From contig ONAB01000010.1 of the NCBI GenBank assembly GCA_900315705.1, forward strand, positions 1 through 64,000: DNA of 64,000 nt, in the 5' to 3' direction. Position 1 is the stretch's first letter. Every line of letters begins with the position of its first letter. The position numbers were made by a program, and so were the translations under genes. This DNA is from an uncultured Bacteroidales bacterium. Lineage in GTDB: Bacteria; Bacteroidota; Bacteroidia; Bacteroidales; WCHB1-69. Below, piece after piece: positions 24,883 to 61,087 of this stretch. A model generated the notes under the pieces. The model ran no database searches and was not told the DNA's origin. It saw only the letters and a list, made by a program, of their open reading frames with translations.

Positions 24883-25050
24883 ATCGCGAATGTCAAAATC
24901 GGGGCCGGATACTCCTATATGCGCGGTACAGAGACGATGGAGACACTACAGCGCGTCTCCGAAAAGCGCCGTCTGCACTGGGGGTGGGTTATGCTAACCG
25001 TCACCCCGACGCTGTTCACCACTGGCTGGAATGACAAGAAGAACCGTTAG
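24883..25050 (+). pseudogene. C-terminal remnant of a beta-barrel-like protein
   Basis: Fifty-five sense codons in frame right after the transferase stop: it opens 'NVKIGAGYSYMRGTE', has 'LQRVSEKRRLHWGWVML', and ends 'TPTLFTTGWNDKKNR' at a TAG. The aromatic, alternating pattern is that of the last strands of an outer-membrane or lipid-facing barrel protein. No start codon or promoter of its own is present. The TAG stop forms part of the first unit of the heptamer array that follows. Confidence 0.6.
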
Positions 25051-25157
25051 ACATTAGCCATTGGCTGTTGGCTATTAGCTATTAGCCATTAGCTGTTAGC
25101 TATTTAACGTCTAAAGTCGTAAGTCGTAAATCGCAAATCGTAAATCGCAAATCGCAA
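25046..25157. repeat. Sixteen-unit drifting 7-bp array
   Basis: An unbroken 7-bp register from 25046 to 25157. The units pass from ATTAGCC/GTTAGCT types through GTCTAAA to GTCGTAA and finally ATCGCAA. It fills the space between the stop of the barrel remnant (its TAG is inside unit 1) and the stop of the fibronectin-III protein gene. Unit types and order match the array upstream of murG. Confidence 0.85.
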
Positions 25158-25162
25158 ATCAC

Positions 25163-27229
25163 CTACCTGTTCACCACTTTCCTCACCACTACCCCACTCT
25201 TTGTCTCGCAATAGAGCAGGAAGGCACCGCTTTCCGGCAGGTGCAGTTCCATCGTCTCCTTCTGTGGGACCAACTCTTTCAGCAAGGCACCGTCGATGGA
25301 ATACAGGCGCACCACTTTGGGCAGTTCTTGTCCAAAGTGCAGCGTGCAATGCCCGTGCGCCGGATTCGGGTATATCTTCACCTCATAATTGACATAGTTA
25401 TGGATGCCCACCGAGTCGTCAATGACCGACGGCAACGTGTCGGTATGGAAGGTCATCATAGCCCAGTTGCCCCAGAGGTCATTGCCGCAGCCGCAGCGCA
25501 CATAAACGTCGTAATAGGTGTCGGGTTGCAGGTCTGTGAGATATAAGAAGCTCTCGCTGGGATGGAGAGTTGTGCCGCTGCCCTGGGCAAACCCCTGGGC
25601 GCCATACTCCACTTCAAAATCAAAGACATTGCCCTCAAAGGCCCATCCTATCGTGGCGCTTGTGGTGTCCACATTGATGACGTGCAGGTTGAAAACCGCA
25701 CTGCAGGTATCCGGGTCGGGAATGACCGGTGGCACCAGCGTGTCGGTGCAGAAAGTGAGGGTGGACCAGTTGCCCCAGAGGTTGTTGCCGCATCCGCAGC
25801 GCACATAGATGTCGTAACAGGTGCCCGGTTGCAGGTTGGAGAGATGCATAAAGCTCTCGCTGGGGTGGAGGGTTGTGCCGCTGCCCTGGGCAAACCCCTG
25901 GGCGCCATACTCCACTTCAAAATCAAAGACATTGCCCTCAAAGCCCCAGCCGATGGTGGCGGAGTTGGTGTCCACCTCGATGACGTGCAGGTTGAAAACC
26001 GCACTGCAGGTGTCCGGGTCAGGAATAATCGGCAGCACGAGCGTGTCGGTATGGAAAGAGACCATCACCCAATCGCTTGCGAGCGTGCTGCTACAGACGC
26101 TGCGCACATACGCGTCGTAATGGGTGCCGGGCTGCAGCGACGAGAGGGTGTGCGTGTTGCCGTTGACGTTCACCGTTGTGCCGGCGCCGTGGGCAAAGCC
26201 CTGCACGCCGTACTCCAGCTCAAAGTGGTCGGGCGTTCCAGCGCAGGTCCAGTTCAGCGTGGCGTGCATCGTGTCCACATTCTGGACGGTCAGGTTGGCC
26301 ACTGCGGCACAAGTGTCTGCAACGGCCGCCTGTTGCGCCCAAAGCTGAAGGTTATCCAGAAACAGGGCCGAGCCTTGCTGGGGAGTTGCGTTGGCTGAGG
26401 AGAGCATCAGAATAATCAACGAGTCGGCCTCCACATTCGGAAATGAAGGATAGACATCAGAAACAGGCGTGTAGTTCACCTCAAAGGGCGCATAATCGGA
26501 AGTGTCGGTCAGGGCCACGGTATAGCCGCCGCCCACGATTTCGCGTTTATGGGTGGCCGTGTTGTATTTGGAGCCGAGTATCAATATTCCGCCATTGTCG
26601 CCGCCCACAGCCGAAGTGTATTTGTAGTATCCCGTCAACTTGTCGGGAGTGGCGCCGTTCAGGGCCACGCCACCTGCTATCAGCGTGTTCAGGTCCACAT
26701 TGATAAAGGTGGAGAGCACCTGCGACAAACTCCCGAGACTGGAGGTCAGCGTGCTCAGCAGGGGCAGCAGGTTGTCGATGTCAACCGCGCCGGTGGAGAG
26801 CACTGTAGGGAACACGGTCGTGGTCAGCATCGGGTCCAGCGATGAAGAGGCAAGATTATAGACGGTGGAGCTGATGATATCGGAGAGCATAAAGCTCTGC
26901 ATCTTGAGGGCGTGCGAGCCGTCCACGGCGCCGCTGGTCTGGTTGGCCACCTTCAGCAGCGGCAGGTTGGTGTTCACGTTCACCGTCGTACCGCTATAGG
27001 TGATGCTTTCGTTCACCGGATAGGTGGGGTAATTCCACCCAGTGGGATAGGTGTAGCTGCTATAGACCTGCAGAGGGAAGATGACCACGGTGACACTGTA
27101 GCCGTTACCATTCGACCAATTTTCGAAACTGGGATTAGGTATGGCGATGGTGCTGTCCTGGTTTTGGGCACTCAAGTTCAAGGAGAAGAGGAGGCAAAGG
27201 GCCAAAAGGAGTAGAGATGCACGTTTCAT
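25163..27229 (-). CDS. Surface protein with fibronectin-III repeats and T9SS sorting domain
   Basis: 688 residues from the ATG at 27229; the preceding in-frame codons are not signal-like. A signal peptide ends 'SLNLSAQ'. Residues ~25-310 form a PCMD-like carbohydrate-associated domain ('IPNPSFENWSNGNGYSVTVV', 'ALFLDNLQLW'). Three fibronectin-III-like repeats of ~101 residues follow, each opening 'CSAVFNLHV' or 'CAAVANLTV'. The second and third are nearly identical even at DNA level (303-bp period). The last ~75 residues are a T9SS type A domain ('VKIYPNPAHGHCTLHF', 'LLYCETKSGVVVRKVVNR'). A cell-surface adhesin or glycan-binding role is plausible; no catalytic motif is seen. Confidence 0.88.
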   Translation of the reverse strand: MKRASLLLLALCLLFSLNLSAQNQDSTIAIPNPSFENWSNGNGYSVTVVIFPLQVYSSYTYPTGWNYPTYPVNESITYSGTTVNVNTNLPLLKVANQTSGAVDGSHALKMQSFMLSDIISSTVYNLASSSLDPMLTTTVFPTVLSTGAVDIDNLLPLLSTLTSSLGSLSQVLSTFINVDLNTLIAGGVALNGATPDKLTGYYKYTSAVGGDNGGILILGSKYNTATHKREIVGGGYTVALTDTSDYAPFEVNYTPVSDVYPSFPNVEADSLIILMLSSANATPQQGSALFLDNLQLWAQQAAVADTCAAVANLTVQNVDTMHATLNWTCAGTPDHFELEYGVQGFAHGAGTTVNVNGNTHTLSSLQPGTHYDAYVRSVCSSTLASDWVMVSFHTDTLVLPIIPDPDTCSAVFNLHVIEVDTNSATIGWGFEGNVFDFEVEYGAQGFAQGSGTTLHPSESFMHLSNLQPGTCYDIYVRCGCGNNLWGNWSTLTFCTDTLVPPVIPDPDTCSAVFNLHVINVDTTSATIGWAFEGNVFDFEVEYGAQGFAQGSGTTLHPSESFLYLTDLQPDTYYDVYVRCGCGNDLWGNWAMMTFHTDTLPSVIDDSVGIHNYVNYEVKIYPNPAHGHCTLHFGQELPKVVRLYSIDGALLKELVPQKETMELHLPESGAFLLYCETKSGVVVRKVVNR

Positions 27230-27739
27230 ATTCGTAAAGATTTTAAAGATGCAAAAGTAAAAAAAATGTTTAGACACAAGAACAATAAAAATTTTCTGCA
27301 ATTTGTTTCATTTCCTGCACGGCTATGAAGGCATCTGCGTCTCGCTGATGCTTCGGCACGATTCCCGAACCGACCTAGCAGGGGCGATGCCTTCACCCCT
27401 TCATCTCCAAAAAGGCAGTGGCGTCCTCCAATAGTTTCTTGTCAGTGGAATATTCCGTTTTTGATAATTTTTCCATATTGTTTTTAATCAGCATACACGC
27501 TGTATTATACAGGTCTTTGTGTTGTTCCCAGAAAAATGTTATTATTGCGCTTGAAACTGACAAATTCCGCCAAATCAAATTGCAAAAATTAACAATTAAA
27601 TATTAAATTATTAAATCATTTTTACAAGTGTTTGATTGTCAGTATTGAAAAAATCTTCTAGAAGTCTTGACTCCAGCGTTTTGTCTTTGTATATTTGCCA
27701 AGCATTCAAACATATTCTCAATCATCAAAATAAAGCACT
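27230..27739. other. Gene-poor spacer with possible gene fragments
   Basis: It contains GAAGGCATC at about 27327 paired with GATGCCTTC near 27391. On the minus strand, 27393-27578 reads as an open frame ('FFWEQHKDLYNTACMLIKNN' ... 'LLEDATAFLEMKG') without a good start codon. It may be the 3' stub of a lost gene. Otherwise I see only AT-rich sequence and a promoter box near its right end. Confidence 0.4.
27690..27697 (+). promoter_or_regulatory. Promoter -7 box driving a truncated ORF
   Basis: TATATTTG, 42 bp before the ATG at 27740, with a TTTG-rich upstream region. Confidence 0.5.
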
Positions 27740-27808
27740 ATGACTAATATCTTGGAAGTTGAAAACGGAATGATTACCCTGCGAGGGCGGCAAGCGGAGA
27801 GCCGCTAA
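27740..27808 (+). pseudogene. Truncated N-terminus resembling an ORF6N-type protein
   Basis: A 22-codon ORF behind a good promoter: 'MTNILEVENGMITLRGRQAE' then SR and stop. The opening matches the usual start of ORF6N (phage antirepressor-type) proteins, 'VIENxIxxIRGQ'. The sequence then breaks off into the 3' end of the convergent AAA ATPase gene. It is best read as the 5' stub of a deleted gene. Confidence 0.4.
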
Positions 27809-29559
27809 CTGCAGCTCCTGAACCCGATGCCGCCGCTCTCCTTGCCGCCAATCTTCTCGTGACGGCACAACTCCTCGATGCCGGCAAGATCGGGACGGGT
27901 GCCGTCAAGCACCTCGCTCATCGTGATCTTGCGCACCACGTTGTCGATTTCACCCCCGGAGAAGTTGTAACGCTCGGCCAACACACGGCTATCCTCATCG
28001 GAAAGCCAGTCCAGTTTGCTCTTCCAGATGGACTGCTTGGCCTCCACCGTGGGATTGTTGAAACGGATTTTGAACAGGAACCTGCGCTCGAAAGCCGGGT
28101 CCAAGTTGTCGATGAGGTTGGTGGTGGCAATCATAATGCCCTCCAGTTTCTCCATCTCTTCCAGGATGATGTTCTGGATAGCGTTCTCGGTTTGCGCCAC
28201 GCTGCTGGAGCCCGGAGCACTTCCGATACTCTGGCGGTTACTGAGCAATGCGTCCGCCTCGTTGAAGAGCAAAATCGGCTTGAGTTTCTCCTTTTCGCAC
28301 AACTGCTTGTAATCGGTGAAGATACGCTTCACCAACTTCTGGCTTTCGCCATACCAGCAGGTCTTGGCGGCGCTGATGTCCACGTGGCACACCGCCCTGC
28401 CCGTGGCCTTGGCGATTTGCATTGCCGTCTCGGTCTTGCCCGTGCCCGGCTGTCCGTGAAACAACGCCACTATACCCTTGGGCATAGACTTTTCCTCAAG
28501 GCGTTTCTGCAAGTCGGCGAATTTCCCCTCCTCCAGATTCCGGCTGAAGAGGCGCAACTGGCGTTCCAACTCTTCGTCATAGAACATCTGTTTCTCCGGA
28601 ATCTGATCCGGATACAACAGTTTCTGGTTTTTCTTTTTGGTGCTGGCAAAAAGGGCAAAATCCTCTTCCAGGAAGAGTTCCTTCCCCTTCTCCGTCAGCT
28701 CAAGCCCTGTTTCAGAAAACATTCTTTCGGGAAGAAGGTTCACCAAATCAAGGGTTTGCAGGGGGTGACGCTCATCCATCATCTGCTTAGCGATGCGGAA
28801 GCGCGTGCTGGGCGACTCATACATATCCTTCAGGGTGCAGTTGATGCCGGTTTCCCCGCCCGCGAGGAAATCGTCGCAAATCTCATACAGCAGCACCCTC
28901 TCTTCAATGTCGATGCGCAGTTTCAGGACCTGCTGCACAAAAGTCATATCCGCATTGCACTGCTCCAGGTCGGCAGCCTTCTCAAAGAGCATCGGTGTGG
29001 GGAAGCTGTCATTGCTGCGCTGCTCTATAAGATCGGAAATCTCGTGCACAAACTTGTAGCGGTCATAATGGAGGTCTTTCAGGTCCTGGGGGGCGAAGCC
29101 CTTCCCGTTCATCACGGCATCCATTACGCAAGGGGCGATTTCAAAGCCGCCGAAACGCATTCCTGCGGGCCGCAGGTAATGATTTTTCACCAGCTGGTCG
29201 AAGTCCTTTTTCAAGGGGAGAATCACCATTCCTTTCACTTCAAAAAACTGCCGGACATCATCCCATTCGATGGTGGAATCCTGGAACTTACGGCTAAAAG
29301 CCACCACCATCAGGGAAGCCTGCACAGGATTGAGACTCAGGAATTTTGCAAAGCACTTGATTCTCTCCACGACGTTTTCCACATCCTGCGGAGAAATATC
29401 AGGTTCATCCTCAAAACCGAACCTATGGCTCTCGCGCGTGAATTTCGTGGGCATATGTACCAAGGTTTGTGGCGCGATGGCTTCCAGAATCCGGGTGCCC
29501 GAATTTTCCATCTTCAGTGCGAGGTAACTTAAAGTCTGCAATATATCTTCTTTTTTCAT
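27805..29559 (-). CDS. AAA+ ATPase of unknown role
   Basis: 584 residues. The N-terminal ~360 residues are helical and unrecognised. The C-terminal AAA+ domain has Walker A 'HGQPGTGKTE' near residue 368, a Walker B-like 'ILLFNEADALL' (Asn-Glu where Asp-Glu is usual, typical of this subgroup), sensor 1 'MIATTNL' and an arginine-finger region 'DPAFERRFLFKI'. A sensor-2-like 'FSGGEIDNVVRKI' follows. The domain resembles CbbX/FtsH/Vps4-type remodelling ATPases, with the N-terminal part as a substrate or partner module. It is alone on its transcript, so no partner can be named. A promoter box lies at 29680-29687. Confidence 0.85.
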   Translation of the reverse strand: MKKEDILQTLSYLALKMENSGTRILEAIAPQTLVHMPTKFTRESHRFGFEDEPDISPQDVENVVERIKCFAKFLSLNPVQASLMVVAFSRKFQDSTIEWDDVRQFFEVKGMVILPLKKDFDQLVKNHYLRPAGMRFGGFEIAPCVMDAVMNGKGFAPQDLKDLHYDRYKFVHEISDLIEQRSNDSFPTPMLFEKAADLEQCNADMTFVQQVLKLRIDIEERVLLYEICDDFLAGGETGINCTLKDMYESPSTRFRIAKQMMDERHPLQTLDLVNLLPERMFSETGLELTEKGKELFLEEDFALFASTKKKNQKLLYPDQIPEKQMFYDEELERQLRLFSRNLEEGKFADLQKRLEEKSMPKGIVALFHGQPGTGKTETAMQIAKATGRAVCHVDISAAKTCWYGESQKLVKRIFTDYKQLCEKEKLKPILLFNEADALLSNRQSIGSAPGSSSVAQTENAIQNIILEEMEKLEGIMIATTNLIDNLDPAFERRFLFKIRFNNPTVEAKQSIWKSKLDWLSDEDSRVLAERYNFSGGEIDNVVRKITMSEVLDGTRPDLAGIEELCRHEKIGGKESGGIGFRSCS

Positions 29560-29679
29560 AACGATAATGGTTTACTCTTATAATATACTGAACAAAATTC
29601 AAAAACGAATCTGAAATTTTGGGAAAAAATTGTTCCTCAATGTCTTTCATATCGTTTTGTTATTGAATGAATGATGCGG

Positions 29680-29687
29680 CAAAGATA
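29680..29687 (-). promoter_or_regulatory. Promoter -7 box for the AAA+ gene
   Basis: TATCTTTG on the minus strand, 120 bp before the start at 29559. The leader contains another ATG (29650) opening a frame that overlaps the AAA+ start. The remaining 29688-29850 holds nothing I recognise. Confidence 0.5.
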
Positions 29688-29850
29688 ATATTTTCATTTT
29701 AATATTATTTATCTTTTAATTAAAAAATAAAAATTCTATGACGACTTGCCAACAGAGGCTACGAGAGAGAGGAAAAAGATGTAATTGTCTTTTGGACAAG
29801 CCAGAGACACATTACCGTTGGCTCATCCCTCCTTTTTTCTCAATATTTTG

Positions 29851-29858
29851 TATTTTTG
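29851..29858 (+). promoter_or_regulatory. Promoter -7 box for the TonB-dependent receptor
   Basis: TATTTTTG, 20 bp before the ATG at 29879. Confidence 0.6.
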
Positions 29859-29878
29859 CATTCTGATATTTGTCGATT

Positions 29879-32245: not shown

Positions 32246-32270
32246 CAAACTCTTTCGTATAGAAATATTC

Positions 32271-32338: not shown

Positions 32339-32346
32339 ATTATTCT

Positions 32347-32853
32347 TTACAAAAGGTAATTTTCTAGATACATCGCAATCCTCGCGCACGCCTCCGCGTC
32401 GGCGAGGGCGTGGTGATGGTTGGTCATCGGGCAGCCACAGGCCTCGGCCACGGTGTGCAGCTGGTGGTTGGGCAAGCGGCGCCCGAAATGGCGCCGCGAA
32501 GCCCGACAAGTGCAATAGAATTGATAATCGGGATAGTCCATCTGATAGACGCGGAACACTGCCTTGAGGCAGCCCTCGTCGAAGGGACTGTTGTGCGCCA
32601 CGAGGGGCAGTCCGGCGATGAGCGGCTCGATCTGTCGCCACACCACGGGGAACACGGGCGCGTTGTCGGTGTCCTCGTGCGAGAGGCCGTGCACTTCCTG
32701 ACAGAACCAGGCGTAGTAGTCGGGTTCGGGATGGATGAGCGAGTAGAACGTGTCGGTGATGACGCCACCGCGCACCACCACCACGCCCACACTGCAGACG
32801 CTGCTGCGCTGCCCGTTGGCGGTTTCGAAATCTATGGCGGCAAAGTCGGTCAT
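32347..32853 (-). CDS. DEDDh 3'-5' exonuclease (DnaQ-like)
   Basis: 168 residues, a stand-alone exonuclease domain. The acidic residues are in place: 'AIDFETA' (Exo I), 'VAHNSPFDEGCLK' (Exo II) and 'HHALADAEACA' (Exo III with the DEDDh histidine). The C-terminal 'TCRASRRHFGRRLPNHQL' segment is typical of the short DnaQ-like proteins of Bacteroidetes, which differ from the replicative epsilon subunit. It may work in repair or RNA trimming. It lies ~110 bp downstream of the PLD nuclease gene on the same strand; an array of 7-bp units precedes the start. Confidence 0.92.
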   Translation of the reverse strand: MTDFAAIDFETANGQRSSVCSVGVVVVRGGVITDTFYSLIHPEPDYYAWFCQEVHGLSHEDTDNAPVFPVVWRQIEPLIAGLPLVAHNSPFDEGCLKAVFRVYQMDYPDYQFYCTCRASRRHFGRRLPNHQLHTVAEACGCPMTNHHHALADAEACARIAMYLENYLL

Positions 32854-32857
32854 TGTG

Positions 32858-32892
32858 GTGATTAGTGATTAGTGAACTGTGATTTTAGATTA
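32858..32892. repeat. Short 7-bp array upstream of the exonuclease gene
   Basis: About five units (GGTGATT, AGTGATT, AGTGAAC and two more) in register between the exonuclease start and the PLD nuclease stop. Confidence 0.45.
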
Positions 32893-33475: not shown

Positions 33476-33487
33476 AATATAAAAATG

Positions 33488-45365: not shown

Positions 45366-45776
45366 ATGACGATGAATCCTCTTGTCAAATTTGCAATTAC
45401 TTGGGTGGTTGCCCTGATGTGTTTCACCGGACTGGCACAAGACAGCCCAGACCTTCAGGACGACCCGCCATTGCATTACACCGATGAGATGCCCGAGTTC
45501 CCGGGCGGCACAGACTCTCTAACCGCGTTTCTCCAGCGGGAAATAGTCTATCCGCCAATTGCGAAAAAGTACGGCATCACCGGCACAGTGCTGATAGATT
45601 TTGTGGTGGAAAGGGACGGACAGGTGACCCACGGCAAGGTCAAGGTGCCGCTCTTCCCCGACTGCGATGTGGAGGCACTGCGCGTTGTAATGTCAATGCC
45701 ACGGTGGAAACCCGGCAGATACTTCGGGAAACCTATTCGGTGCTTCTATACGGTGCCGGTAAGGTTTGAGAATTGA
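45366..45776 (+). CDS. Small secreted TonB C-terminal domain protein
   Basis: 136 residues with a signal peptide ending 'TGLAQ'. The rest is one TonB-C domain: 'MPEFPGGTDSLTAFLQREIV', 'YPPIAKKYGITGTVLIDFVV', 'SMPRWKPGRYFGKPIRCFYT'. It lacks the N-terminal TM anchor and the proline-rich linker of real TonB, so it is unlikely to energise receptors by itself. Many Bacteroidetes carry such stand-alone domains. The end of the gene (RFEN) is encoded by the first unit of a heptamer array. Confidence 0.85.
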   Translation: MTMNPLVKFAITWVVALMCFTGLAQDSPDLQDDPPLHYTDEMPEFPGGTDSLTAFLQREIVYPPIAKKYGITGTVLIDFVVERDGQVTHGKVKVPLFPDCDVEALRVVMSMPRWKPGRYFGKPIRCFYTVPVRFEN

Positions 45777-45872
45777 GAGTTGAGAATTGAGAGTTGAGAA
45801 TTGAGAATTAATTAAGACTGGAGACTTAAGACTTTAGACTGAAGACCGTAAACCGTAAAACGTAAATCGCAA
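45768..45872. repeat. Fifteen-unit drifting 7-bp array ending exactly at a start codon
   Basis: The units pass from GAGAATT/GAGAGTT through ACTTAAG and ACCGTAA to ATCGCAA with no break in register. The first unit contains the last codons of the TonB-C gene, and unit 15 is followed directly by the ATG at 45873. Confidence 0.9.
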
Positions 45873-47945
45873 ATGTCCAGAAAGCGCCACACTTTGATTC
45901 TTTTACTGACAATATGCACGTTGTCGGCGTTTGCGCAACAGGAGAAGGATTTCAATGAAAGAATAACTCCTCCCTTCGATTGTGTGGCAGTGTCGCCGGG
46001 AGGAGACCTGTGGGGATCCCAAGAACACCGGGGACTTCTATATCACGCTGGGAGTCTCCGCGATCTTTGGCACGTTGTGGACAACCTCGGCAAAGGCCAT
46101 CCCGACGACAGCCATTATGACGGCGGGGGCAAACTATCCCACATCATCTGCCCGGACAGCAACACCGTACTGGTGGTTGGAGAGATTCACAACCCCTTCA
46201 AACACAAACAGGTCCGCAACACCTACTGGTACTCCAACGATCGGGGGAAGACGTGGGAGTCGAGAGTTTTTGCCGCCAACAAAGACCAGATCCGCTGCAC
46301 ATTCTGTTCCCCATCCGGCGAGGTCTGGATTGCGAGCGACACGCTTTATTGCTCCGCCGACAAGGGATTGTCCTTCACAAAGCTCAACCACTTCCCGCAC
46401 ACGCTCTCCTCGATCTCAATGAACCCGGACCTGCGCACAGGCGTTGCAGGGTGCTATGACAATGCCATCTACTACACCGAAGACAACTGGACCACCTACC
46501 GTGACATCCGAACCCCCGACAAGCAGAATCTCCTCAATAAGGACAACAGCCATTCCGAAGAACCCAGGTACAAAAGATGTTTAAGGACTCTGATCTTCAA
46601 AGAATGGATTGTGGTGTACCAGGGCGATGAATGGTTTCGCTCTGCAAGGGACAGAATCAAATGGGAAAGATTTCCCGAAGGCCTCACGCCCCAAACCCAC
46701 GATCTCGAATCCGGCGTCCTCCTGCTAACCGACGAAGCAGGCGACATTTTAAGGACGAGGGATCTTCTGCATTTTGACACCGTGTTCCATTCTCAAGGAG
46801 GCTACCCTTTCAGGCTCCGTGTCTGCAACGGACAGCTATACGGTTACATCTCGACAGCCGCGGACCACTTTTTCTGCCATTTTTCCGGTGATTCCTGCAC
46901 CCGTATGGGATTCTTCAGCGACGACCATCCCATCCCCGCGCCGTGGCACAGGGCCACCGCCAGTTGGGTCTGGTTTGATTTCGCTGTTGAACATCTTAAG
47001 GACAGAGTGTACTCTGAAAAATATCCTTGGGGTTGGGAGAAGAAGGACATCCTCCATTTCGACTCTGAAAAAAAACAGTGGCACAGGGTTGTTACCGCAC
47101 CGTTTAAGATTCAATATATGTACCCGTACAGCGATGGGAAATGCCCTGACGGGCAGCAGGTTGTTATCAGTGATGGCAAACAATCCTATCTGGTTAGCGA
47201 GCACAATCCTACCCTACGGCCGTTTCGCATAGAAAGGCCCTTGGACAAATTCCTGCGCTATCCTGTCTCCCAAGTCATCTTCACCCCTTATACCGGCGGC
47301 TGCTTCCATTTCTGGCAAGATTCCATCAGCTATGTTAGAGAAAACGATCTCTTTGTGGCAAAAAATGCCATCCTCCACAATGACACCGTGGAACTAAGCC
47401 TTTCTTTCAGAGCGGAAGCGCTGGACGCCTTGCTCAGAGACCTCAACCTGCACTACGACACCTCCATCACAATGGGGATGTTCTCTTTCGCAAAGGCCGA
47501 CTACGATTCTGTGATGAGCCTTTACAAGAAAAACTCGTCGTTATACCTTTTCAGGTTCGCCACGCTCAAAGACATCTACCAGTTGGACGACACCGTCTCC
47601 CACTTCAGCGATTCGCTGATCCACTATATAATGACCAGCGGTTTCGGTGACGGCTGCACCACAACAGCATTCTTCACAGCGCGAATCATCAACCAAAACG
47701 GAGACGAGCTGATCGTCAGCGGTGAAGACGCGTCTTGCCACCTCGGGGAGCACTCCTTTATGATGCCGGTAGAACTGCGCACAGACAGCCTTATCCTGTC
47801 CTGCACGCACATCCCGTTTCTTCGCTTCCTAGGCGAATTAATGCCACAAAAGATGGTGACCCGACGAAACTTCACCGACCTCGACGTGCTGTTGAAATGC
47901 CTCCGTTACCTCACCCACCCGAAAGAGAACTGGGAGACACTGTAG
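45873..47945 (+). CDS. Large secreted protein with N-terminal beta-propeller, function unknown
   Basis: 690 residues with a signal peptide ending 'LSAFAQ'. The N-terminal ~400 residues look like a propeller with one clear Asp box ('YSNDRGKTWES') and weaker ones ('YCSADKGLSFTKL', 'YYTEDNWTTYRDI'). The C-terminal ~200 residues are unrecognised and hold repeated Ser/Thr/Phe-rich strands. Sialidase residues (RIP arginine) are absent, so hydrolase activity is doubtful. No T9SS domain is seen. It begins immediately after a heptamer array, and its TAG stop lies inside the repeat at 47942-47984. Confidence 0.78.
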   Translation: MSRKRHTLILLLTICTLSAFAQQEKDFNERITPPFDCVAVSPGGDLWGSQEHRGLLYHAGSLRDLWHVVDNLGKGHPDDSHYDGGGKLSHIICPDSNTVLVVGEIHNPFKHKQVRNTYWYSNDRGKTWESRVFAANKDQIRCTFCSPSGEVWIASDTLYCSADKGLSFTKLNHFPHTLSSISMNPDLRTGVAGCYDNAIYYTEDNWTTYRDIRTPDKQNLLNKDNSHSEEPRYKRCLRTLIFKEWIVVYQGDEWFRSARDRIKWERFPEGLTPQTHDLESGVLLLTDEAGDILRTRDLLHFDTVFHSQGGYPFRLRVCNGQLYGYISTAADHFFCHFSGDSCTRMGFFSDDHPIPAPWHRATASWVWFDFAVEHLKDRVYSEKYPWGWEKKDILHFDSEKKQWHRVVTAPFKIQYMYPYSDGKCPDGQQVVISDGKQSYLVSEHNPTLRPFRIERPLDKFLRYPVSQVIFTPYTGGCFHFWQDSISYVRENDLFVAKNAILHNDTVELSLSFRAEALDALLRDLNLHYDTSITMGMFSFAKADYDSVMSLYKKNSSLYLFRFATLKDIYQLDDTVSHFSDSLIHYIMTSGFGDGCTTTAFFTARIINQNGDELIVSGEDASCHLGEHSFMMPVELRTDSLILSCTHIPFLRFLGELMPQKMVTRRNFTDLDVLLKCLRYLTHPKENWETL

Positions 47946-51677: not shown

Positions 51678-52547
51678 ATGGCAACTATCATTGATGGCAA
51701 GGAGATTGCCGCAACCATAAAGACCGAAATCGCCACCGAGGTGAAAGCATTGTTGGACCAGGGACGTCCCGCCCCGCATCTGGCGGTCATCATCGCCGGC
51801 GAGGACGGCGCCGCCCTCAGCTACGTCAACAGCATCGAGAAGCAGTGCAAGGCCGTGGGCTACATCTGCTCCGCCTACAAGTTCCCCGAGAACGTCAAGG
51901 AGCAGGACATCCTCGACACCATCGATTTCCTCAACCAGGACAACGAGATCAACGGCTACATCATCCAGATGCCGCTGCCCAAGCAGGTTTCCATCGACAA
52001 AGTGACCGCGCACGTGGACCCGCGCAAGGATATGGACTGCTTCCATCCCGCCAATATGGGCAATCTGCTGCTGGGCAAGGAGTGCTACCTGCCCGCCACG
52101 CCCCACGGTGTGATGGAGCTCATCCGTCGCAGCAACATCGAGACCACCGGCAAGGAGTGCGTCATTCTCGGTCGCAGCAACATCGTGGGCAAGCCTTTGG
52201 CTATGTTGTTGTTGCAGAAGGACGCCAACGCCACAGTCACCGTGTGCCACAGCCGCACCAAGAACCTCAAGCGGGTGTGCAGTCGCGCCGACATCCTCAT
52301 CGTGGCCATCGGCCAGCCGGAGATGATCACGGAGGAGTACGTCAAGGACAAAGCCACGGTTATTGACGTGGGCATCCACCGCATCCCAGACCCGGGGCAA
52401 CCCAACGGGTATCGCGTCTGCGGCGACGTCAAGTACGACGAGGTCAGCAAGAAGTGCGAGGCCATCACGCCCGTGCCTGGCGGCGTGGGACCGATGACGA
52501 TGGCCTGCCTGCTGCTCAACACGATGAAAGCATATAAGGGATGTTAG
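51678..52547 (+). CDS. folD: Bifunctional-type FolD with substituted catalytic lysine
   Basis: 289 residues, full length. Methylenetetrahydrofolate dehydrogenase/cyclohydrolase signatures: 'GYIIQMPLPKQV', 'KDMDCFHPANMG', 'LPATPHGVMELI', 'GRSNIVGKPLAMLLLQ' and 'TPVPGGVGPMTMACLLLNT'. In other FolD proteins the conserved tyrosine is followed four residues later by the catalytic lysine (YxxxK). Here the aligned stretch 'SYVNSIEKQCKAVG' has isoleucine at that place, with a lysine two residues on. Known lysine substitutions in the human enzyme abolish cyclohydrolase activity. The usual DVDG motif also reads DMDC. The stop codon lies in the first unit of a heptamer array. Confidence 0.93.
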   Translation: MATIIDGKEIAATIKTEIATEVKALLDQGRPAPHLAVIIAGEDGAALSYVNSIEKQCKAVGYICSAYKFPENVKEQDILDTIDFLNQDNEINGYIIQMPLPKQVSIDKVTAHVDPRKDMDCFHPANMGNLLLGKECYLPATPHGVMELIRRSNIETTGKECVILGRSNIVGKPLAMLLLQKDANATVTVCHSRTKNLKRVCSRADILIVAIGQPEMITEEYVKDKATVIDVGIHRIPDPGQPNGYRVCGDVKYDEVSKKCEAITPVPGGVGPMTMACLLLNTMKAYKGC

Positions 52548-52668
52548 CCATTAGCTGTTAGCTGTTAGCTGTTAGCTGTTAGCTGTTAGCTGTTAGCTGT
52601 TAGCTGTTAGCTGTTAGCTATTAGCCATTAATCGTAAATCGTAAATCGTAAATCGTAAATCGCAAATC
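52543..52668. repeat. Eighteen-unit 7-bp array bridging folD stop and murG start
   Basis: 126 bp in unbroken 7-bp register. The order is GTTAGCC, ATTAGCT, nine consecutive GTTAGCT, then ATTAGCC, ATTAATC, four GTAAATC and one GCAAATC. The folD TAG is inside unit 1; two bases after unit 18 the murG ATG begins. Confidence 0.95.
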
Positions 52669-52670
52669 GT

Positions 52671-55028: not shown

Positions 55029-55030
55029 TG

Positions 55031-55062
55031 TACGATTTTCGATTTGCGATTTACGATTTGCG
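55031..55062. repeat. 7-bp array between nqrE and nqrF
   Basis: On the minus strand GCAAATC, GTAAATC, GCAAATC and GAAAATC precede GTACA and the nqrF ATG. These are the same unit types as upstream of murG. Confidence 0.75.
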
Positions 55063-55068
55063 GCTGCC

Positions 55069-55680: not shown

Positions 55681-55736
55681 ATCTAACTATCTAATTCCCT
55701 TAACTTTTAACTTCTTAACTTCTTAGTTTCTTAATT
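55681..55736. repeat. 8-bp-period array between nqrD and nqrE
   Basis: On the minus strand AAATTAAG, AAACTAAG, AAGTTAAG and further drifting copies lead to GATATGGG, which contains the nqrE ATG. The period here is 8, not 7. Confidence 0.6.
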
Positions 55737-56328
55737 TCCCATCCCCCACTCCATTCTTCACCCAAATAATGCTCCCCACCAGGATCAGTGCCATCGGCGG
55801 GAGAATCATCAGGCCGTTGTTGAGGTAGCCGGCGGCGTACCAAGACTGCGGCACGACGGGATGGTTCCAGAGCGTGCCCGAGCCGAGCAGTTCACGGAAA
55901 AAGGCGACCACAACGAGCACCAGTCCGTACCCCACGCCATTCATCACTCCGTCCATCAAGGAGGGCAACGGCTTGTGCGACAGCGCAAAAGCCTCCAGAC
56001 GGCCCATCACGATGCAGTTGGTGATGATGAGGCCCACAAACACCGACAGCATCTTGCTCACATCATAGAGGTAGGCCTGCAACATTTGGTCCACCAGAAT
56101 GACAAAGAAAGAAACCACCAGCAACTGCACGATGATGCGGATTCTCGGCGGTATCGTATTACGTATCAAGGAGATGATAAAGTTGGAGCAGGCGCACACC
56201 ACCGTCACGGACAGCGCCATCACCACGGCGGGCTTCAACTGCGCCGTGACCGCCAGCGCCGAGCACACGCCAAGCGTCTGCACCAAAATGGGGTTGTCTT
56301 TACTAAGTGGTCCGAGATATTTCTTCAT
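55723..56328 (-). CDS. nqrD: Na+-translocating NADH:quinone reductase subunit D
   Basis: 201 residues, six TM helices. The signature 'NPILVQTLGVCSALAVTAQL' carries the conserved Cys near residue 22. 'LIITNCIVMGRLEAFAL' with the second Cys and 'DGVMNGVGYGLVLVVVAFFR' follow. It overlaps the nqrC stop by four bases (ATGA), so the two are coupled. Confidence 0.97.
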   Translation of the reverse strand: MKKYLGPLSKDNPILVQTLGVCSALAVTAQLKPAVVMALSVTVVCACSNFIISLIRNTIPPRIRIIVQLLVVSFFVILVDQMLQAYLYDVSKMLSVFVGLIITNCIVMGRLEAFALSHKPLPSLMDGVMNGVGYGLVLVVVAFFRELLGSGTLWNHPVVPQSWYAAGYLNNGLMILPPMALILVGSIIWVKNGVGDGKLRN

Positions 56329-56954: not shown

Positions 56955-56992
56955 AACCTTTTTTCTCAATAACCTTTCTTGCCTCAACGAAC

Positions 56993-57030
56993 CATCGTCT
57001 TTCGTCTAACGTCTCAAGTCTTAACTCTCC
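56993..57030. repeat. Five-unit 7-bp array between nqrB and nqrC
   Basis: On the minus strand GAGAGTT, AAGACTT, GAGACGT, TAGACGA and AAGACGA in register, between the nqrB stop and the nqrC start. Confidence 0.65.
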
Positions 57031-58081
57031 TCCGTCGTTTAACATTCGTCTGTATCACACAATAATCGATAAGCGGGGCGAAGATGTTCATCAGCAGGAT
57101 GGCAAGCATCATACCTTCAGGATAGCCCTTATTGAGGGTTCGGATGAGAATGGCGAGCACGCCGATGAGCAGTCCGTAGATATACTTGCCCGTGCGGGTG
57201 TGTGCGGCTGTGACGGGGTCGGTGGCCATAAAGACCGCGCCGAAGAGGAATCCGCCCATCAGCAGCTGTTGATGGGCCGCCGCGGGGCAGAGTCCGGCGA
57301 GATTGCAGATGAGTGCCGTTGCATAGCCACCTGCGACGACCGTGAGCATAATGCGCCAATCGGCCACCTGCGTGAAGAGGAGGATGGCGGCGCCAATGAG
57401 GATGGCAATCTTGCAGGTCTCCCCGATGCAGCCCGGGATGGTACCGAGGAAGAGTTCCCAGGTGGAGGGCAGCGCCTCGGGGTGACCGTTCATCACGAGA
57501 GCCAGGGGCGTGGCACCGGTGACGGCATCCGCGCCGGCTGAGATCCAGACCTTGTCGCCAGAGATGACCGACGGGTAGGCAAAGAAGACGAAGGCGCGGG
57601 CCAACAGCGCGGGATTCAGGAAGTTATAGCCTGTGCCACCGAACACCTCCTTGCCGAAAAGCACGGCGAAGGCGGTGGCCAGCGCCACGATCCAGAGCGG
57701 CACATCGGGTGGCATAATCATCGGGATGATGAAGCCCGTGACGAAAAAGCCCTCCGCCACCTCTTCCTTGCGTATTTGGGAGAAGAGGACCTCAACGCCC
57801 AGTCCGCTGACGTAGGTCACGATGACCAGCGGCAGCCATTTGAGGAAGCCGTACCAGGCAGCGCCCAAAACCGTGGGGGCGTAGCCCATAGAGAGGAAAT
57901 GCTGGTAGCCCACATTCCACCAGCCGAAAAACAGTGCGGGACAAAGCGCAATCATCACGGTGATCATAATGCGCTTCATATCAACCGCGTCGCGCACGTG
58001 GCAGCGTCCCTCCGTCACAGTGGCGGGGGTGCGCAGGAACGTGTCCATCGCATCCAGCAAGGCGTTGAACTTCTTGGGCAT
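57014..58081 (-). CDS. nqrB: Na+-translocating NADH:quinone reductase subunit B
   Basis: 355 residues, somewhat shorter than the ~400 of Vibrio. Multiple TM helices. Diagnostic NqrB (not RnfD) pieces are 'KEVFGGTGYNFLNPALLARA', 'SGDKVWISAGADAVTGATPL' (flavin-linking Thr) and 'DPVTAAHTRTGKYIYGLLIG'. It binds riboflavin and covalent FMN and forms much of the sodium path. It is the first gene of the nqrBCDEF transcript, with its own promoter box at 58103-58110. nqrA, normally directly upstream, is instead 4.9 kb away. Confidence 0.96.
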   Translation of the reverse strand: MPKKFNALLDAMDTFLRTPATVTEGRCHVRDAVDMKRIMITVMIALCPALFFGWWNVGYQHFLSMGYAPTVLGAAWYGFLKWLPLVIVTYVSGLGVEVLFSQIRKEEVAEGFFVTGFIIPMIMPPDVPLWIVALATAFAVLFGKEVFGGTGYNFLNPALLARAFVFFAYPSVISGDKVWISAGADAVTGATPLALVMNGHPEALPSTWELFLGTIPGCIGETCKIAILIGAAILLFTQVADWRIMLTVVAGGYATALICNLAGLCPAAAHQQLLMGGFLFGAVFMATDPVTAAHTRTGKYIYGLLIGVLAILIRTLNKGYPEGMMLAILLMNIFAPLIDYCVIQTNVKRRRRVKT

Positions 58082-58102
58082 TTGCTTTTTCTTTTAGGGG
58101 TG

Positions 58103-58110
58103 CAAAAATA
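58103..58110 (-). promoter_or_regulatory. Promoter -7 box for nqrB-F
   Basis: TATTTTTG on the minus strand, 21 bp before the nqrB ATG. Its presence means nqrB-F do not depend on transcription from nqrA. Confidence 0.65.
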
Positions 58111-58141
58111 CACATATTTCCTATAGGTAACAAATTTTTCT

Positions 58142-58149
58142 TATCTTTG
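58142..58149 (+). promoter_or_regulatory. Promoter -7 box for the lipoprotein gene
   Basis: TATCTTTG, 29 bp before the ATG at 58179, divergent from the nqrB promoter within the same 97-bp gap. Confidence 0.65.
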
Positions 58150-58178
58150 CAGCGTCCTTATTTCCTAAACGAATAATT

Positions 58179-59354
58179 ATGAAAAAAAACGCCCTCAAAC
58201 AAATCTCGCCCGTCCTGGTCTGGTTGTTTCTGATGTTCGGCTTTTCAGGATGCATTATCGATCCCATAGAGCCCTCACATCCAACGCACACGGGGCTGAC
58301 TCCCATTGAATACACCCCTGAAGTTCAAGAGCCCATCACCAACGACTTCACCCTGATAAAGGCTTGCTTAGGGAAATCCCAATCCGAATCTGCCGCCCTG
58401 CTGACACATTATGGCTTCTCGCCCACAGAAGGGAACAAATTTGTAAAAACAGAAAATGGCCTCACAAAAGAGGCAACCATATACTCTTCCAGCAATGTTG
58501 CGCTGGCCCTGCTCGAAAGCGACTTCGACCTTCAGAAACAAGTTTTCTCTCAATGGATGCGAGAAATCCGGAATTCGGTGGCTTACACGAAGATGGTCAG
58601 ATCCTCCTTCTCGCTCAGTACTGGCTGGAACAACGGGTATCAACACTTCAACACTCCTGAAGAATTATTGGCCGACCTCGCAATCGTGCCTCCTGCCGAT
58701 GGAATGTCGGCCTCATTCTACGGGAACGACATCTACGCCAACCAGTACTATCTGGATATGATGCCGGACATTGGTGGCGTTTGTATGCAGATCATCAACC
58801 AGCGTGCCGGCCAACCCGCAGATGACTTCACCGAAAGCGACCTTAGGCCCACAGATTTGCAAAAACACATACTGATTTCCAAGGTGGACTACTTGACATT
58901 CCGTTACAAGGGCTTTTATGCGCTCAATGTCACTAACAAACTGAACACTGGAAATGAGATTCCTTTTGTGGCAGATTACCGGTCACCAGGAGATTTTGGA
59001 TACATCAAACTCTATTATCGCAACACCAACAACTTGTTGATGGATGGCACCATCATCTGGTCGGGTTGCGGCGAACTCAATTTCCCCGAATCATTCCGTG
59101 CTGGACAGCGGTTGAGCAACGTTCTCCCCTATCCCGGCCAAAGTCGAATTGCCTTCATCAACCAAGAGGGGCATTACACGACCGTATCCGACGATACCGA
59201 ACTGCAACGTATCTGGCACACACTCTCCCGCCAGAAGGAATTCAGGCATTATTTCGGCCGCACCTCCAAAAAGATTGCGGTGTACCTCTACACGCCCAGT
59301 GTAGGTGTCGGCAACCCCGCCGATGCGTACTACCTGGTATTCACGGAGCAATAG
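58179..59354 (+). CDS. Lipoprotein of unknown function
   Basis: 391 residues. The lipobox is 'GFSGC' (Cys about residue 25), followed by a Pro/His/Thr-rich linker. The body is mixed alpha/beta: 'FTLIKACLGKSQSESAALLT', 'DIGGVCMQIINQRAGQPADD', 'YLYTPSVGVGNPADAYYLVF'. No family is recognised and no catalytic motif stands out. It is the first gene of the segment that separates nqrA from nqrB, followed 18 bp later by a TonB-C-type gene in the same direction. Confidence 0.78.
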   Translation: MKKNALKQISPVLVWLFLMFGFSGCIIDPIEPSHPTHTGLTPIEYTPEVQEPITNDFTLIKACLGKSQSESAALLTHYGFSPTEGNKFVKTENGLTKEATIYSSSNVALALLESDFDLQKQVFSQWMREIRNSVAYTKMVRSSFSLSTGWNNGYQHFNTPEELLADLAIVPPADGMSASFYGNDIYANQYYLDMMPDIGGVCMQIINQRAGQPADDFTESDLRPTDLQKHILISKVDYLTFRYKGFYALNVTNKLNTGNEIPFVADYRSPGDFGYIKLYYRNTNNLLMDGTIIWSGCGELNFPESFRAGQRLSNVLPYPGQSRIAFINQEGHYTTVSDDTELQRIWHTLSRQKEFRHYFGRTSKKIAVYLYTPSVGVGNPADAYYLVFTEQ

Positions 59355-59372
59355 GATTTTTTGTGCATTACG

Positions 59373-60218
59373 ATGAAAAGACCCCTTTTGATACTTCTTG
59401 CCCTCTTCACGCTGCTTAATGCAACCGCCCAGCGGCGCTACTATGTCGGGATTCCGTTCCATCAGGGCTATCTGAAGGATTCCACGCGGTTCGTGATCGA
59501 TTGTTTGCCGTGGCACCCGAATGGAAGACTGGACCAGAAATATATGCCACGCTATTTAGAGCCGCTGAAGCAGTTTATGGCAATGCACCCTGGCTATAAG
59601 TGCAACTTTTTGTTGTACAGTCACGAAGAAAATGAAGAAAAGAACTTAGGGTTTACTTCATACCAGACAAGACATCTGGCTGATTATTTCACGTATATAG
59701 ACACCCTCTTCGGGCAGCAATACCTCAACGAAATCATCCCCCACAGCGGTCCAAACCCTTTGTTCAAAGACGTACAAGCCGACAGCAGCCAGCGACTGCC
59801 TCGGTGGGAAGCCAACATCTGCTTGAAATCCAGCGTCATCATTGAACTTATTCAGCAATATCCAATCCACCGAATGGCGATGCAGACCGCCTACTTCTCA
59901 CATCCTTGCGAGGACAACGACTTTGATGAGGCACCCACTTTCTCCGGTGGGATGAGCGGGTTGTACGATTACTTAGCGCAGCGTATGGACTATTCCGTGG
60001 TGGGGCAATCGAACGTTATCGGCGTGGTGCTAATGGAGTTCACCATTGAGGCCGACGGCAGCGTGACCTCACCCGAAATCAAGGTGCCATTGTTTCTCGC
60101 CCTCAACGAACAGGCCCTGCAAATCGTAAGCGAGATGCCACGCTGGAGCCCCGCCCTCAAGGACGGCCGTCCCGTGCGCTGCCGGTACCAGATGCCGATG
60201 CATTATACGGGGAATTGA
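59373..60218 (+). CDS. Secreted protein with TonB C-terminal-like domain
   Basis: 281 residues from the ATG at 59373. Signal peptide ends 'LLNATAQ'. An unrecognised ~180-residue domain comes first. The last ~85 residues resemble a TonB-C domain: 'NVIGVVLMEFTIEADGSVTS', 'ALQIVSEMPRWSPALKDGRP', 'VRCRYQMPMHY'. This is the third such domain in the window (others at 44488 and 45366), with the same 'MPRW' core. It probably forms one transcript with the lipoprotein gene upstream. Confidence 0.8.
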   Translation: MKRPLLILLALFTLLNATAQRRYYVGIPFHQGYLKDSTRFVIDCLPWHPNGRLDQKYMPRYLEPLKQFMAMHPGYKCNFLLYSHEENEEKNLGFTSYQTRHLADYFTYIDTLFGQQYLNEIIPHSGPNPLFKDVQADSSQRLPRWEANICLKSSVIIELIQQYPIHRMAMQTAYFSHPCEDNDFDEAPTFSGGMSGLYDYLAQRMDYSVVGQSNVIGVVLMEFTIEADGSVTSPEIKVPLFLALNEQALQIVSEMPRWSPALKDGRPVRCRYQMPMHYTGN

Positions 60219-60230
60219 TGGCGCTTGCCC

Positions 60231-60480
60231 GCAGGCCTAACGGCCTGCGAAAAAAACACGGGGGACGCCGCATTCCTACCGAGCCCTTCAGCCCTAACGG
60301 GCTGAAATGCAAGTGGCATAACATCCTACCAAATTCGTTCTCTCTGAGGGCTGAAATGCAAATGGCATCGCATATACCGAGCCCTTCAGCCCTAATGGGC
60401 TGAAACGTGGGTGACACCACCTTCCCCTAAATCCGCTCTCTCCTAAAGGGCTGAAACGCAAATGGCAGGCCGTTTAGGTC
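60231..60480. repeat. Cluster of REP-like palindromes
   Basis: GCAGGCC TAAC GGCCTGC (60231-60248) is followed by four spaced copies of an AGCCC/GGGCTGAAAtGCAA-type unit near 60284, 60345, 60378 and 60433. Two of them are full palindromes (CAGCCCTAACGGGCTGAA and a TAATG variant). Another GCAGGCC..GGTCTGC pair lies just after. The 60219-60616 gap holds no gene. Confidence 0.7.
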
Positions 60481-60585
60481 TGCCGGGCTTGGTAGCAACG
60501 GGCGCCACGGAGACAACCATCGCAGGCCGTAGGTCTGCGGGCAAAGGGAAAGAATCCCTTAAGACACAAATACGCATAAAATTCG

Positions 60586-60593
60586 TATTTTTG
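60586..60593 (+). promoter_or_regulatory. Promoter -7 box for the TIGR04076 gene
   Basis: TATTTTTG, 23 bp before the ATG at 60617. Confidence 0.6.
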
Positions 60594-60616
60594 CATCTCG
60601 TAATAATCACAAAAAA

Positions 60617-60934
60617 ATGCCCCCTTACAACGTCAAAATCACCGTCATACGGAAAGTGCAGCACACCGACCTTTCCAAGCTTTACGAAAACCCCATCGAA
60701 CACGCGTGCGAGGTGCGGGAGGGCGACACGTGGATTGCCGTGGGCGGGCAGAAGCCCGAGGGGCTCTGCGACAGCGCGTGGGAGTCGATGCGGTGGTTCG
60801 TGGAGAAACTCGCCGCCGGACGCGGCAACTTCTACGACGGCTGGATGAAGAACCCCTTCTCCGCAATGATCAGCTGCAACGACGGCTTCCGCCCCGTGAG
60901 TTTCCTGCTGGAAAGATGCGAGGAGGGATGTTAG
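60617..60934 (+). CDS. TIGR04076 family small protein
   Basis: 105 residues, the usual size of the family. Pattern: 'YNVKITVIRKV', a charged strand 'ACEVREGDTWIAVGGQKPEG', 'LCDSAWESMRWFVEKLAAG' and a closing 'AMISCNDGFRPVSFLLER'. Two conserved Cys sit after the PEG-L motif and before the final strand. The role of TIGR04076 proteins is not known. No signal peptide. The TAG stop is inside the first unit of a long heptamer array, and the last residues (EGC) match the GC ending of folD because both stops lie in a TGTTAG unit. Confidence 0.85.
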   Translation: MPPYNVKITVIRKVQHTDLSKLYENPIEHACEVREGDTWIAVGGQKPEGLCDSAWESMRWFVEKLAAGRGNFYDGWMKNPFSAMISCNDGFRPVSFLLERCEEGC

Positions 60935-61087
60935 CGATTTGCGATTTGCGATTTGCGATGTGCGATGTGCGATGTGCGACTTACGACTTACGATTTGCGA
61001 TTTAAGGTCTACGGTCTAAGGTCTAAGGTTTCAGGTTTCAAGTCTAAAGTCTTAAGTCTTAATTCTTAACTTTCAACTCTCCACTCA
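60934..61087. repeat. Twenty-two-unit drifting 7-bp array
   Basis: The longest array: from 60934 every seventh base starts a new unit for 154 bp. It moves from GCGATTT and GCGATGT through ACGACTT, AAGGTCT and CAGGTTT to TAAGTCT and CAACTCT, neighbours usually differing by one or two bases. Nearly all units end in T. Read on the minus strand, unit types and order match the array at 45768-45872. Confidence 0.92.

Follow-up and report, generated by a model that had tools for sequence, protein, structure and literature searches.

Tandem heptamer arrays of varying sequence lie mainly at gene 3′ ends in a genus of uncultured Bacteroidales

The window studied here is a 64,000-nucleotide stretch of DNA from an uncultured Bacteroidales bacterium (positions 1 to 64,000, forward strand, of contig ONAB01000010.1, GenBank assembly GCA_900315705.1), and it carries tandem arrays of a 7-bp unit whose letters change along the array. 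In a sample of the genus, such arrays are mostly gene 3′-end elements: their edges pile up on stop codons, four to five units are in excess, and unit types recur at unlinked loci of one genome. A sequence-only reading of the window had described the arrays as a window-wide class; that class is real, but the description was incomplete, having missed the tie to gene 3′ ends.

Results

Period 7 and the seat at stop codons

The genus sample comprised 1.65 Mb from 15 genomes. The window's own genome, G000, supplied 394 kb picked around AATCGYA hits, so its array density and the AATCGYA family are over-represented. The other 14 genomes supplied 17-100 kb each from contigs known from an NqrE or AATCGYA search (AATCGYA hits led to those of at least G021, G015 and G006, and both searches to contig C9 of G014), sampled from the contig start onward and blind to arrays. 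Genes were called with a simple hexamer script, and their starts are rough. Self-similar segments numbered 220 at lag 7, 38 at lag 8, 24 at lag 9, 14 at lag 6 and 3 at lag 10, with none at lags 4 and 5; G000 has 19 lag-9 segments. Lag 7 led among lags 4-13 in each of the 15 genomes (tied in G015), which bears out the proposal of a genome-wide class with period 7 specifically.

Intergenic DNA holds 251 of the 268 arrays, coding sequence (CDS) the other 17. At 70 of 224 gene 3′ sides an array edge falls from -10 to 0 bp of the stop, against a null mean of 26.1 and a maximum of 37 in 200 random placements, and at 32 more the edge lies deeper inside the gene 3′ end (null mean 12.8). Edges 1-10 bp past the stop show no excess (20 versus 18.4 in the null), and bins beyond that fall below it. 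Where the gap spans 120 bp or more, 75 of 298 stops have an array within the 40 nt behind them and 27 of 412 starts have one within the 40 nt ahead; the corresponding counts for gaps of at least 200 bp are 38/159 and 10/255. Overall, 115 of 605 gene ends with room for an array bear one, including 40 from the enriched G000 sample; with that genome left out the count is 75 of 466, and in G015 none of 37 gene ends has an array. Within the 109 arrays that abut a stop, two of which sit behind paralogous neighbouring genes (locus L078) and are not independent, 135 stop triplets share phase 0 with the true stop, versus 26-64 in the other six phases. Array-bearing gene ends are also somewhat purine-richer on the sense strand (0.564 versus 0.511).

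Unit number and register

Lag-7 spans of 6-10 bp, equivalent to two units, number 22 and show no excess over lags 8, 9 and 10 (26, 38 and 32). Spans of 24-28 bp, by comparison, number 59 against 9, 2 and 1, and those of 17-28 bp (four to five units) 135 against 38, 9 and 6. In a laxer count, four units form the peak class (92) beyond two-unit arrays. Among 562 array-free gene ends, the 7-mer at the stop has a copy at lag 7 in 9 and at lag 8 in 8 (0-5 at other lags).

These counts bear on local slippage alone, the main rival to the copying model developed below. Here a chance duplication of a 7-mer would be followed by 7-nt slippage, point mutation and purging from coding and promoter regions, with no exchange between loci. 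The rarity of arrays in CDS (17/268) suits such an origin, as does the report that heptamers outnumber every other class of long simple repeat in most of the genomes surveyed by Mrazek et al. (2007, as relayed in PMC4679880 and PMC4692102). Against it, two-unit arrays, its obligatory first step, show little or no excess, and uniform seeding in gaps does not yield an excess exactly at the stop. We regard it as rather unlikely.

Over about 1613 lag-7 units in 251 arrays, neighbouring units differ by 1985 substitutions, with 8 lag switches. A direct detector, estimated to see about half of such events, found 7 insertions or deletions (indels) of 1-2 bp. The claim that unit length stays constant while letters change is therefore upheld, and its stricter form, that indels are absent, holds broadly but not to the letter.

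Arrays of the window and their block structure

Window segments were scored where the match fraction reached at least 75% across 28 positions. This lag scan gave 10 segments totalling 813 bp at lag 7, 2 at lag 8 and none at lags 2-6 or 9-13; each of 20 Markov-3 simulations of the window was free of lag-7 segments at the same threshold, and Tandem Repeats Finder agreed with the scan. Neither the window nor the genus spectrum thus has lag 7 on a par with other lags, the outcome that had been named as refuting. Under a laxer rule the window contains 13 arrays, 12 of them intergenic and one over the end of an open reading frame (ORF); one of the 13, at 27584-27614, is plain A/T-rich and doubtful.

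The four longest arrays, A to D, hold 16, 15, 18 and 22 whole units, counted from 25048, 45767, 52545 and 60932, respectively, exactly the numbers first given for them. All four begin on the upstream stop codon or one unit ahead of it, and they fill 110 of 112, 95 of 96, 123 of 123 and 150 of 150 bp of their inter-ORF gaps. The stop of array A is the least certain of the four, as it comes from a script-called short ORF (24919-25050, 44 aa).

Array A, 25048..25160, plus strand: 16 units plus 1 nt, in the gap between two convergent ORFs
Array A, block 1: TAGCYRT, starting on the stop TAG (25048-25050) of the short called ORF
Array A, block 2: CGYAAAT, which is TTTGCGA/TTTACGA seen from the opposing gene (25163-27301)
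Array B, 45767..45871, plus strand: 15 units
Array B, layout: TGAGAAT/TGAGAGT, then GACTTAA-type, then AACCGTA/AATCGCA up to the ATG at 45873
Array B, stop: TGA at 45774-45776, the stop of a TonB_C gene
Array C, 52545..52670, plus strand: 18 units filling the 123-bp gap from a folD-type to a murG-type gene
Array C, layout: 12 TAGCYRT units (9 of them TAGCTGT), then AATCGTA-type
Array C, edges: first unit begins with the folD-type gene's own stop TAG; end abuts the murG-type ATG (52671)
Array D, 60932..61087, plus strand: 22 units between two convergent genes
Array D, plus side: TTGCGAT block from the stop TAG of the plus-strand ORF
Array D, minus side: CTTAAGT/TTCAGGT blocks, which are GAGTTGA/GAATTAA/GACTTAA from the stop of the alpha-L-fucosidase gene (minus strand)

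The shorter arrays are as follows, with minus-strand units given on the sense strand.

16493..16528, plus strand: over the thrS stop (TAA, 16501-16503), GAATTAA/GAATGAA units
16793..16821, minus strand: over the 3′ end of the opposing DUF4130 gene, TAGATGA/TAGATAA
17641..17683, plus strand: intergenic, TCAATGG units
20462..20500, plus strand: intergenic, GGTCAAA units
32856..32885, minus strand: short array just 5′ of the start of an exonuclease gene (32347-32853, minus), AATCACT
55029..55065, minus strand: most of the 40-bp nqrE|nqrF gap, AAATCGT/AAATCGC
56992..57028, minus strand: over the nqrB stop in the nqrB|nqrC gap, TTAGACG/TTAAGAC
62966..63007, minus strand: over the 3′ end of an nqrA-type gene (62980-63963, minus), GAATTGA

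In arrays A to D, neighbouring units within a block are mostly identical at 5-7 of 7 positions, and identity falls to 2-4 of 7 at block junctions, so apparent drift is partly the juxtaposition of blocks; across such a junction the register would have no support from homology. In G000, clusters within 15 nt of a stop make up 7 of 8 for TTAGCYA, 7 of 12 for GARTTGA and 11 of 20 for GACTTAA, the stop-side families, and 3 of 24 for AATCGYA. Short gaps join a stop-side block to a block adjoining the neighbouring gene (AATCGYA), and this fusion accounts for a good share of the common unit order; at A and D, where the flanking genes converge, either gene end carries its own block.

Beyond this, unit order is shared between loci as a tendency with a residual signal. 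Drifting 16-mers in the same order occur in 21 of 3434 locus pairs in the window's own genome (6 with unit order reversed), in 4 of 1266 pairs within other genomes (1 reversed) and in 17 of 26560 pairs between genomes (7 reversed). Ungapped scores of at least 30 were reached by 110 pairs versus 76 order-reversed, of 3466, a modest excess only. Of the proposal that different arrays show the same units in the same order, the residual 16-mer signal (21 versus 6) survives, and much of the rest reduces to fused gene-side blocks.

Units shared between unlinked loci

In the 14 genomes other than G000, 207 within-genome array pairs have a 9-mer in common, 2.1 times the rate with shuffled genome labels (mean 98.6, maximum 134 of 1000). 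Of pairs less than 1 kb apart, a fraction of 0.28 share a 9-mer; at larger distances the fraction is 0.10-0.16 and hardly declines any more (0.128 at more than 50 kb), and between genomes it is 0.065; column-permuted arrays, tested in four genomes, gave about 0.03. In co-directional gaps, shared units had the same gene orientation in 306 and the opposite in 212 of 2405 pairs, a small difference. Purely local slippage poorly explains unit types common to unlinked loci, in agreement with the sequence-only reading that slippage alone does not suffice, and the 2.1-fold sharing counts against an origin without exchange. In favour of that origin, a test for shared segments revealed no clear composite block copied between loci.

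Turnover at orthologous gaps

Orthologous junctions, whose comparison had been proposed at the outset, carry different 7-mers at the same gap among congeners. The nqrE|nqrF gap holds a lag-7 array in 12 of 29 genomes, in about seven unit families (AATCGYA, TTAGAAG, TAATAGA, TTAGYAG, GAATNAN, TGAAACC and AACCCTA), and a lag-8 array in 2; across the 29, no other lag appeared at comparable strength, and in ten the gap is at most 21 bp. One of these arrays keeps its unit number in three species, with single columns changed and part of the flank diverged.

At the folD|murG gap of array C, inspected by eye, congeners carry other units, and some short gaps have no array. In the sister genome L127 (94% protein identity) array C retains its start, TAGCCATTAGCTGTT, and lacks both the nine-unit TAGCTGT run and the AATCGTA block; the array has about 3 units in L091 and at least 10 in L090. 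In L078, two neighbouring large genes (5438-9305 and 9668-13421) have the same 3′ end and an identical 7-bp array, and by eye one of these paralogous ends has a unit more than the other in the 8-bp array alongside. Such apparent whole-unit change between close relatives or paralogues (folD|murG and L078) would suit slippage, with or without copying between loci; the equal unit number of an nqrE|nqrF array in three species and the identical 7-bp array of the L078 paralogues point the other way.

Related loci come from metagenome-assembled genomes (MAGs) or assemblies of uncultured bacteria, a source in which assembly or sequencing artefacts might arise. Yet the same pattern turns up in MAGs from several projects and hosts, and three species keep one array at an orthologous site. 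An artefact, which the sequence-only reading had listed among its refutations, therefore has a negligible chance of being the cause.

Two further features were noted. In L042 and L054 a gene lies between nqrD and nqrE, inside the nqr operon; by eye we take it to be an N6-adenine DNA methyltransferase, with DPPYNL and DPFSGSGTS-like motifs. A dispersed element resembling repetitive extragenic palindromic (REP) sequences, approximately CCTTGAGCAGYCCCG.AGGGRC...CCCCACACAAGCGAMG...GCGCAGTGTGGGG, lies, as judged by eye, behind the stop-side array in numerous gaps and in several species, for instance at L076:650-870, L080:8670-9000, L080:13165-13400 and in the nqr gaps of L042, L043 and L053. An inverted-repeat search of three REP-like stretches returned no arm of at least 10 bp.

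Frame closing, structure and enzymes

The arrays might instead be selected elements, either backstops that close all three frames or targets of a factor that binds RNA or DNA in 7-nt units, with the units of each genome following its own factor. All three frames are closed within 30 nt at 50 of 106 array-bearing gene ends versus 31 of 408 without an array, and the next in-frame stop lies at a median of 18 versus 42 nt, both in favour of a backstop. On the antisense strand, three-frame closing occurs in 33 of 106, and in about 11 after shuffling. Permuting columns while keeping the period, however, closes three frames almost as well (mean 38.4, s.d. 3.5, versus 43 observed of 82), which makes frame closing in large part a by-product of periodicity; selection for it beyond periodicity was rejected.

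Stop-triplet density in stop-abutting arrays is 0.110 on the sense strand, above both the antisense value of 0.082 and all 300 column permutations (mean 0.090, maximum 0.105). This excess favours selection, but it is also expected if the true stop is copied into the next units. By eye, the folD stop TAG of L091 stands opposite CAG in L090, where translation would end a few codons later, inside the heptamer array; the pair may represent a natural case of an array acting as a backstop. The purine bias of array-bearing ends and the array that keeps all its units in three species despite a partly diverged flank also point towards selection. Against it stand the scarcity of arrays (115/605 gene ends overall, 0/37 in G015), the turnover of sequence at orthologous sites and RNA structure equal to that of controls. 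On balance a selected element appears improbable.

General RNA structure was rejected as an explanation, with a mean z of -1.24 for array gaps and -1.36 for control gaps (104 each) and z below -2 in 29 and 37 of these, respectively. Rfam at gathering score returned three tRNAs only in the window. The idea of an RNA reading the 7-nt register accordingly found no support. Quadruplex formation was rejected as well, with a G3 motif in 2 of 251 arrays.

Inverted arrangements do occur in a minority. Of 49 pairs of neighbouring arrays, 12 show an inverted and 3 a direct relation and 34 show none, and 4 of 119 long arrays have an internal inversion; by another count, the same-gap partner is inverted for 27 and direct for 15 of 251 arrays. 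Long imperfect hairpins formed by two inverted heptamer arrays were noted at L174:15735, L153:6970, L165:12604-12685 and L027:1496-1584; their arms carry the same unit variants, and strand switching could make or correct such hairpins.

Enzymatic addition or mobility, through a reverse transcriptase, telomerase-like templating or insertion and excision with a 7-bp target duplication, would fit the constant unit length, the multi-unit size mode and the shared units. However, G000 (97.6% complete) had no RVT_1 match at E ≤ 0.001, and 3 of the 10 genomes searched had one, with lag-7 segments in all ten; transposases and 7-bp target duplications were not searched for. We rejected reverse transcriptase templating, given the absence of a match in the window's own genome, and consider the wider class very improbable. 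MutS loss was likewise rejected as a cause, MutS_V being present in 10 of 10 genomes searched, G000 included.

Spread across the genus and beyond

The probe ATCGYAAATCGYAAATCGYAA matched 69 times in the window's own genome (43 + 26), its reversed control not at all. The probe is present in 7 of 24 congeners searched, the reversed control having one match, in G013; no probe match was found in 16 genomes of other families. The 52 related loci come mainly from ruminant gut sites and horse faeces, and their records bear the title Bacteroidales bacterium or Bacteroidetes bacterium. Other families of the order (400 kb, 13 genomes) gave 16 lag-7 versus 1 lag-8 segments, nearly all in G063, and a class or phylum sample (400 kb, 20 genomes) gave 4 versus 3, so occurrence outside the genus is patchy. 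Locus L265 of G063, from another family, has 13 heptamer arrays within 20 kb, with ACCATCA, ACACTAA and TTTTCAC units mostly away from stops.

Other repeats were observed alongside the heptamers. A minor class of 8-bp arrays, also frame-shifting, includes TGAGACGA in the nqrE|nqrF gap of L045 and L048 (identical gaps) and an array of CTTAACTT type at 55699-55738 of the window. The window further contains a 303-bp internal tandem repeat inside the gene for a fibronectin type III protein (25463-26224) and a 49-bp tandem repeat of 2.6 copies that contains CAGCCCTAAGGGCTG (60277-60405).

Discussion

A model for gene-end heptamer arrays

We tentatively favour, at a probability of roughly 0.45, gene-end heptamer arrays that are seeded by copied blocks, grown by 7-nt slippage and then altered by point mutation. 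A new array behind a stop would begin as a short block of about four to five units, copied through a template switch or ectopic conversion with another array of the genome as its source. It would then grow or shrink by whole units through 7-nt replication slippage, which would keep the register because whole units move, and its letters would drift through point mutation. The region behind the stop would tolerate arrays, and because 7 equals 1 modulo 3, an A/T-rich array would soon close all three frames after the stop, largely as a by-product. Where gaps are short, the array of one gene end would meet that of its neighbour, giving the ordered composites.

That copying seeds arrays is suggested by the shared units and the scarcity of two-unit arrays, and several observations weigh against this model. 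The scarcity depends on scoring, since the laxer count gives a small lag-7 excess of two-unit arrays (97, versus 85, 70, 61 and 35 at lags 6, 8, 9 and 10). Copying in trans was not caught directly: strongly non-periodic shared segments occurred in 6 of 2512 pairs in the window's own genome versus 4 with unit order reversed, in 0 of 550 pairs within other genomes and in 8 of 14261 between genomes. Genomes G015 and G020, with 3 and 4 arrays, showed no within-genome sharing (0/3 and 0/6 pairs), and shared units could also stem from shared selection or mutational bias. As to the seat, array edges at -3 to +5 bp of starts show a mild excess (24 versus 14.2), the stop is repeated in phase in the very next unit in only 34 of 109 stop-abutting arrays, and contact with a stop codon is limited to 3 of the 15 arrays in G063.

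Comparison with known heptamer repeats

The short tandemly repeated repetitive (STRR) sequences of heterocystous cyanobacteria are 7-nt tandem units, and the present arrays are likened to them by unit length, not sequence. Three Calothrix heptanucleotides and the Helicobacter pylori heptamer GTGATTA are mentioned in PMC4692102; GTGATTA serves as a unit in 6 of our 15 genomes, with up to 14 units.

Among the closest known systems are the GGGAATC and GGGGA(C/T)T heptamers repeated in Xanthomonas and Nostoc (Rehm et al. 2015, PMC4692102), marked by a GGGANTN/GGGGAYT unit and a place on the stop codon or within 50 bp of it. For Xanthomonas, that paper reports heterogeneous heptamers overlapping stop codons, four units as the commonest number and inverted pairs. 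The present arrays are likewise enriched on the stop and within 40 nt behind it, though not every array is so placed, and show the same four-unit preference (peak at four, excess at four to five). The systems differ in that the published repeats, as described there, have one G-rich, quadruplex-forming unit type, whereas ours comprise many families, block composites and species preferences. Here GGGAATC (G023) and GGGGACT (G006) occur as single two-unit sets only, and GGGGATT not at all. With a G3 motif in only 2 of 251 arrays, four-unit preference and stop seat need no quadruplex.

Direct repeats of TAACTGA were described from Beggiatoaceae, cyanobacteria and five Bacteroidetes (MacGregor et al. 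2015, PMC4679880). As described there, they are intergenic, some overlap stop codons, and stops in all three frames were noted; a single unit prevails, mostly just 5′ of starts in the main genome studied, and near variants are rare. Intergenic heptamers, some over stop codons, are thus common to both systems, but in our genus the units vary and sit mostly behind stops (75/298 versus 27/412 before starts). TAACTGA is one unit among many here, with three sets of up to 5 units in G050, one two-unit set each in G044 and L039, and none in the 458 kb of G000 examined, which speaks against a special transferred element. That both TAACTGA and GTGATTA serve as units suggests one common process behind them.

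More generally, head-to-tail 7-nt units beyond chance length place the arrays with the long simple sequence repeats of the 5-11 nt class, for which Mrazek et al. (2007, as cited in PMC4679880 and PMC4692102) proposed a slippage length of 7 nt favoured by the polymerase. Surveys of near-perfect repeats would under-count drifting arrays of the present kind. In the literature searched, no account of gene-end heptamer arrays with drifting units was listed for Bacteroidales. The sequence-only reading, which knew of no ordered, drifting heptamers described in this order, stands to that extent, with the qualification that heptamer repeats as such are known in some Bacteroidetes (TAACTGA, PMC4679880). 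The kind is already known from Mrazek, Rehm and MacGregor; the many-lettered, species-specific composite form is new within the literature searched.

A bolder extension, which we hold to be distinctly unlikely, is that heptamer arrays breed arrays: multi-unit blocks would be copied between gene ends genome-wide with no dedicated transposase or reverse transcriptase, giving species-specific dialects, and TAACTGA, GGGAATC and others would be dialects of one widespread, self-spreading class of DNA. For annotation, arrays at gene ends can shift the annotated C-terminus. Because the units of this lineage vary in letters, single-motif explanations fail here. Its freely varying units join the scattered heptamer reports from Xanthomonas, Nostoc and Beggiatoa and separate what is constant (a unit length of 7, a position at the stop, a size of about four units) from what varies (letters, quadruplex potential), and why bacteria favour 7 nt thereby becomes testable.

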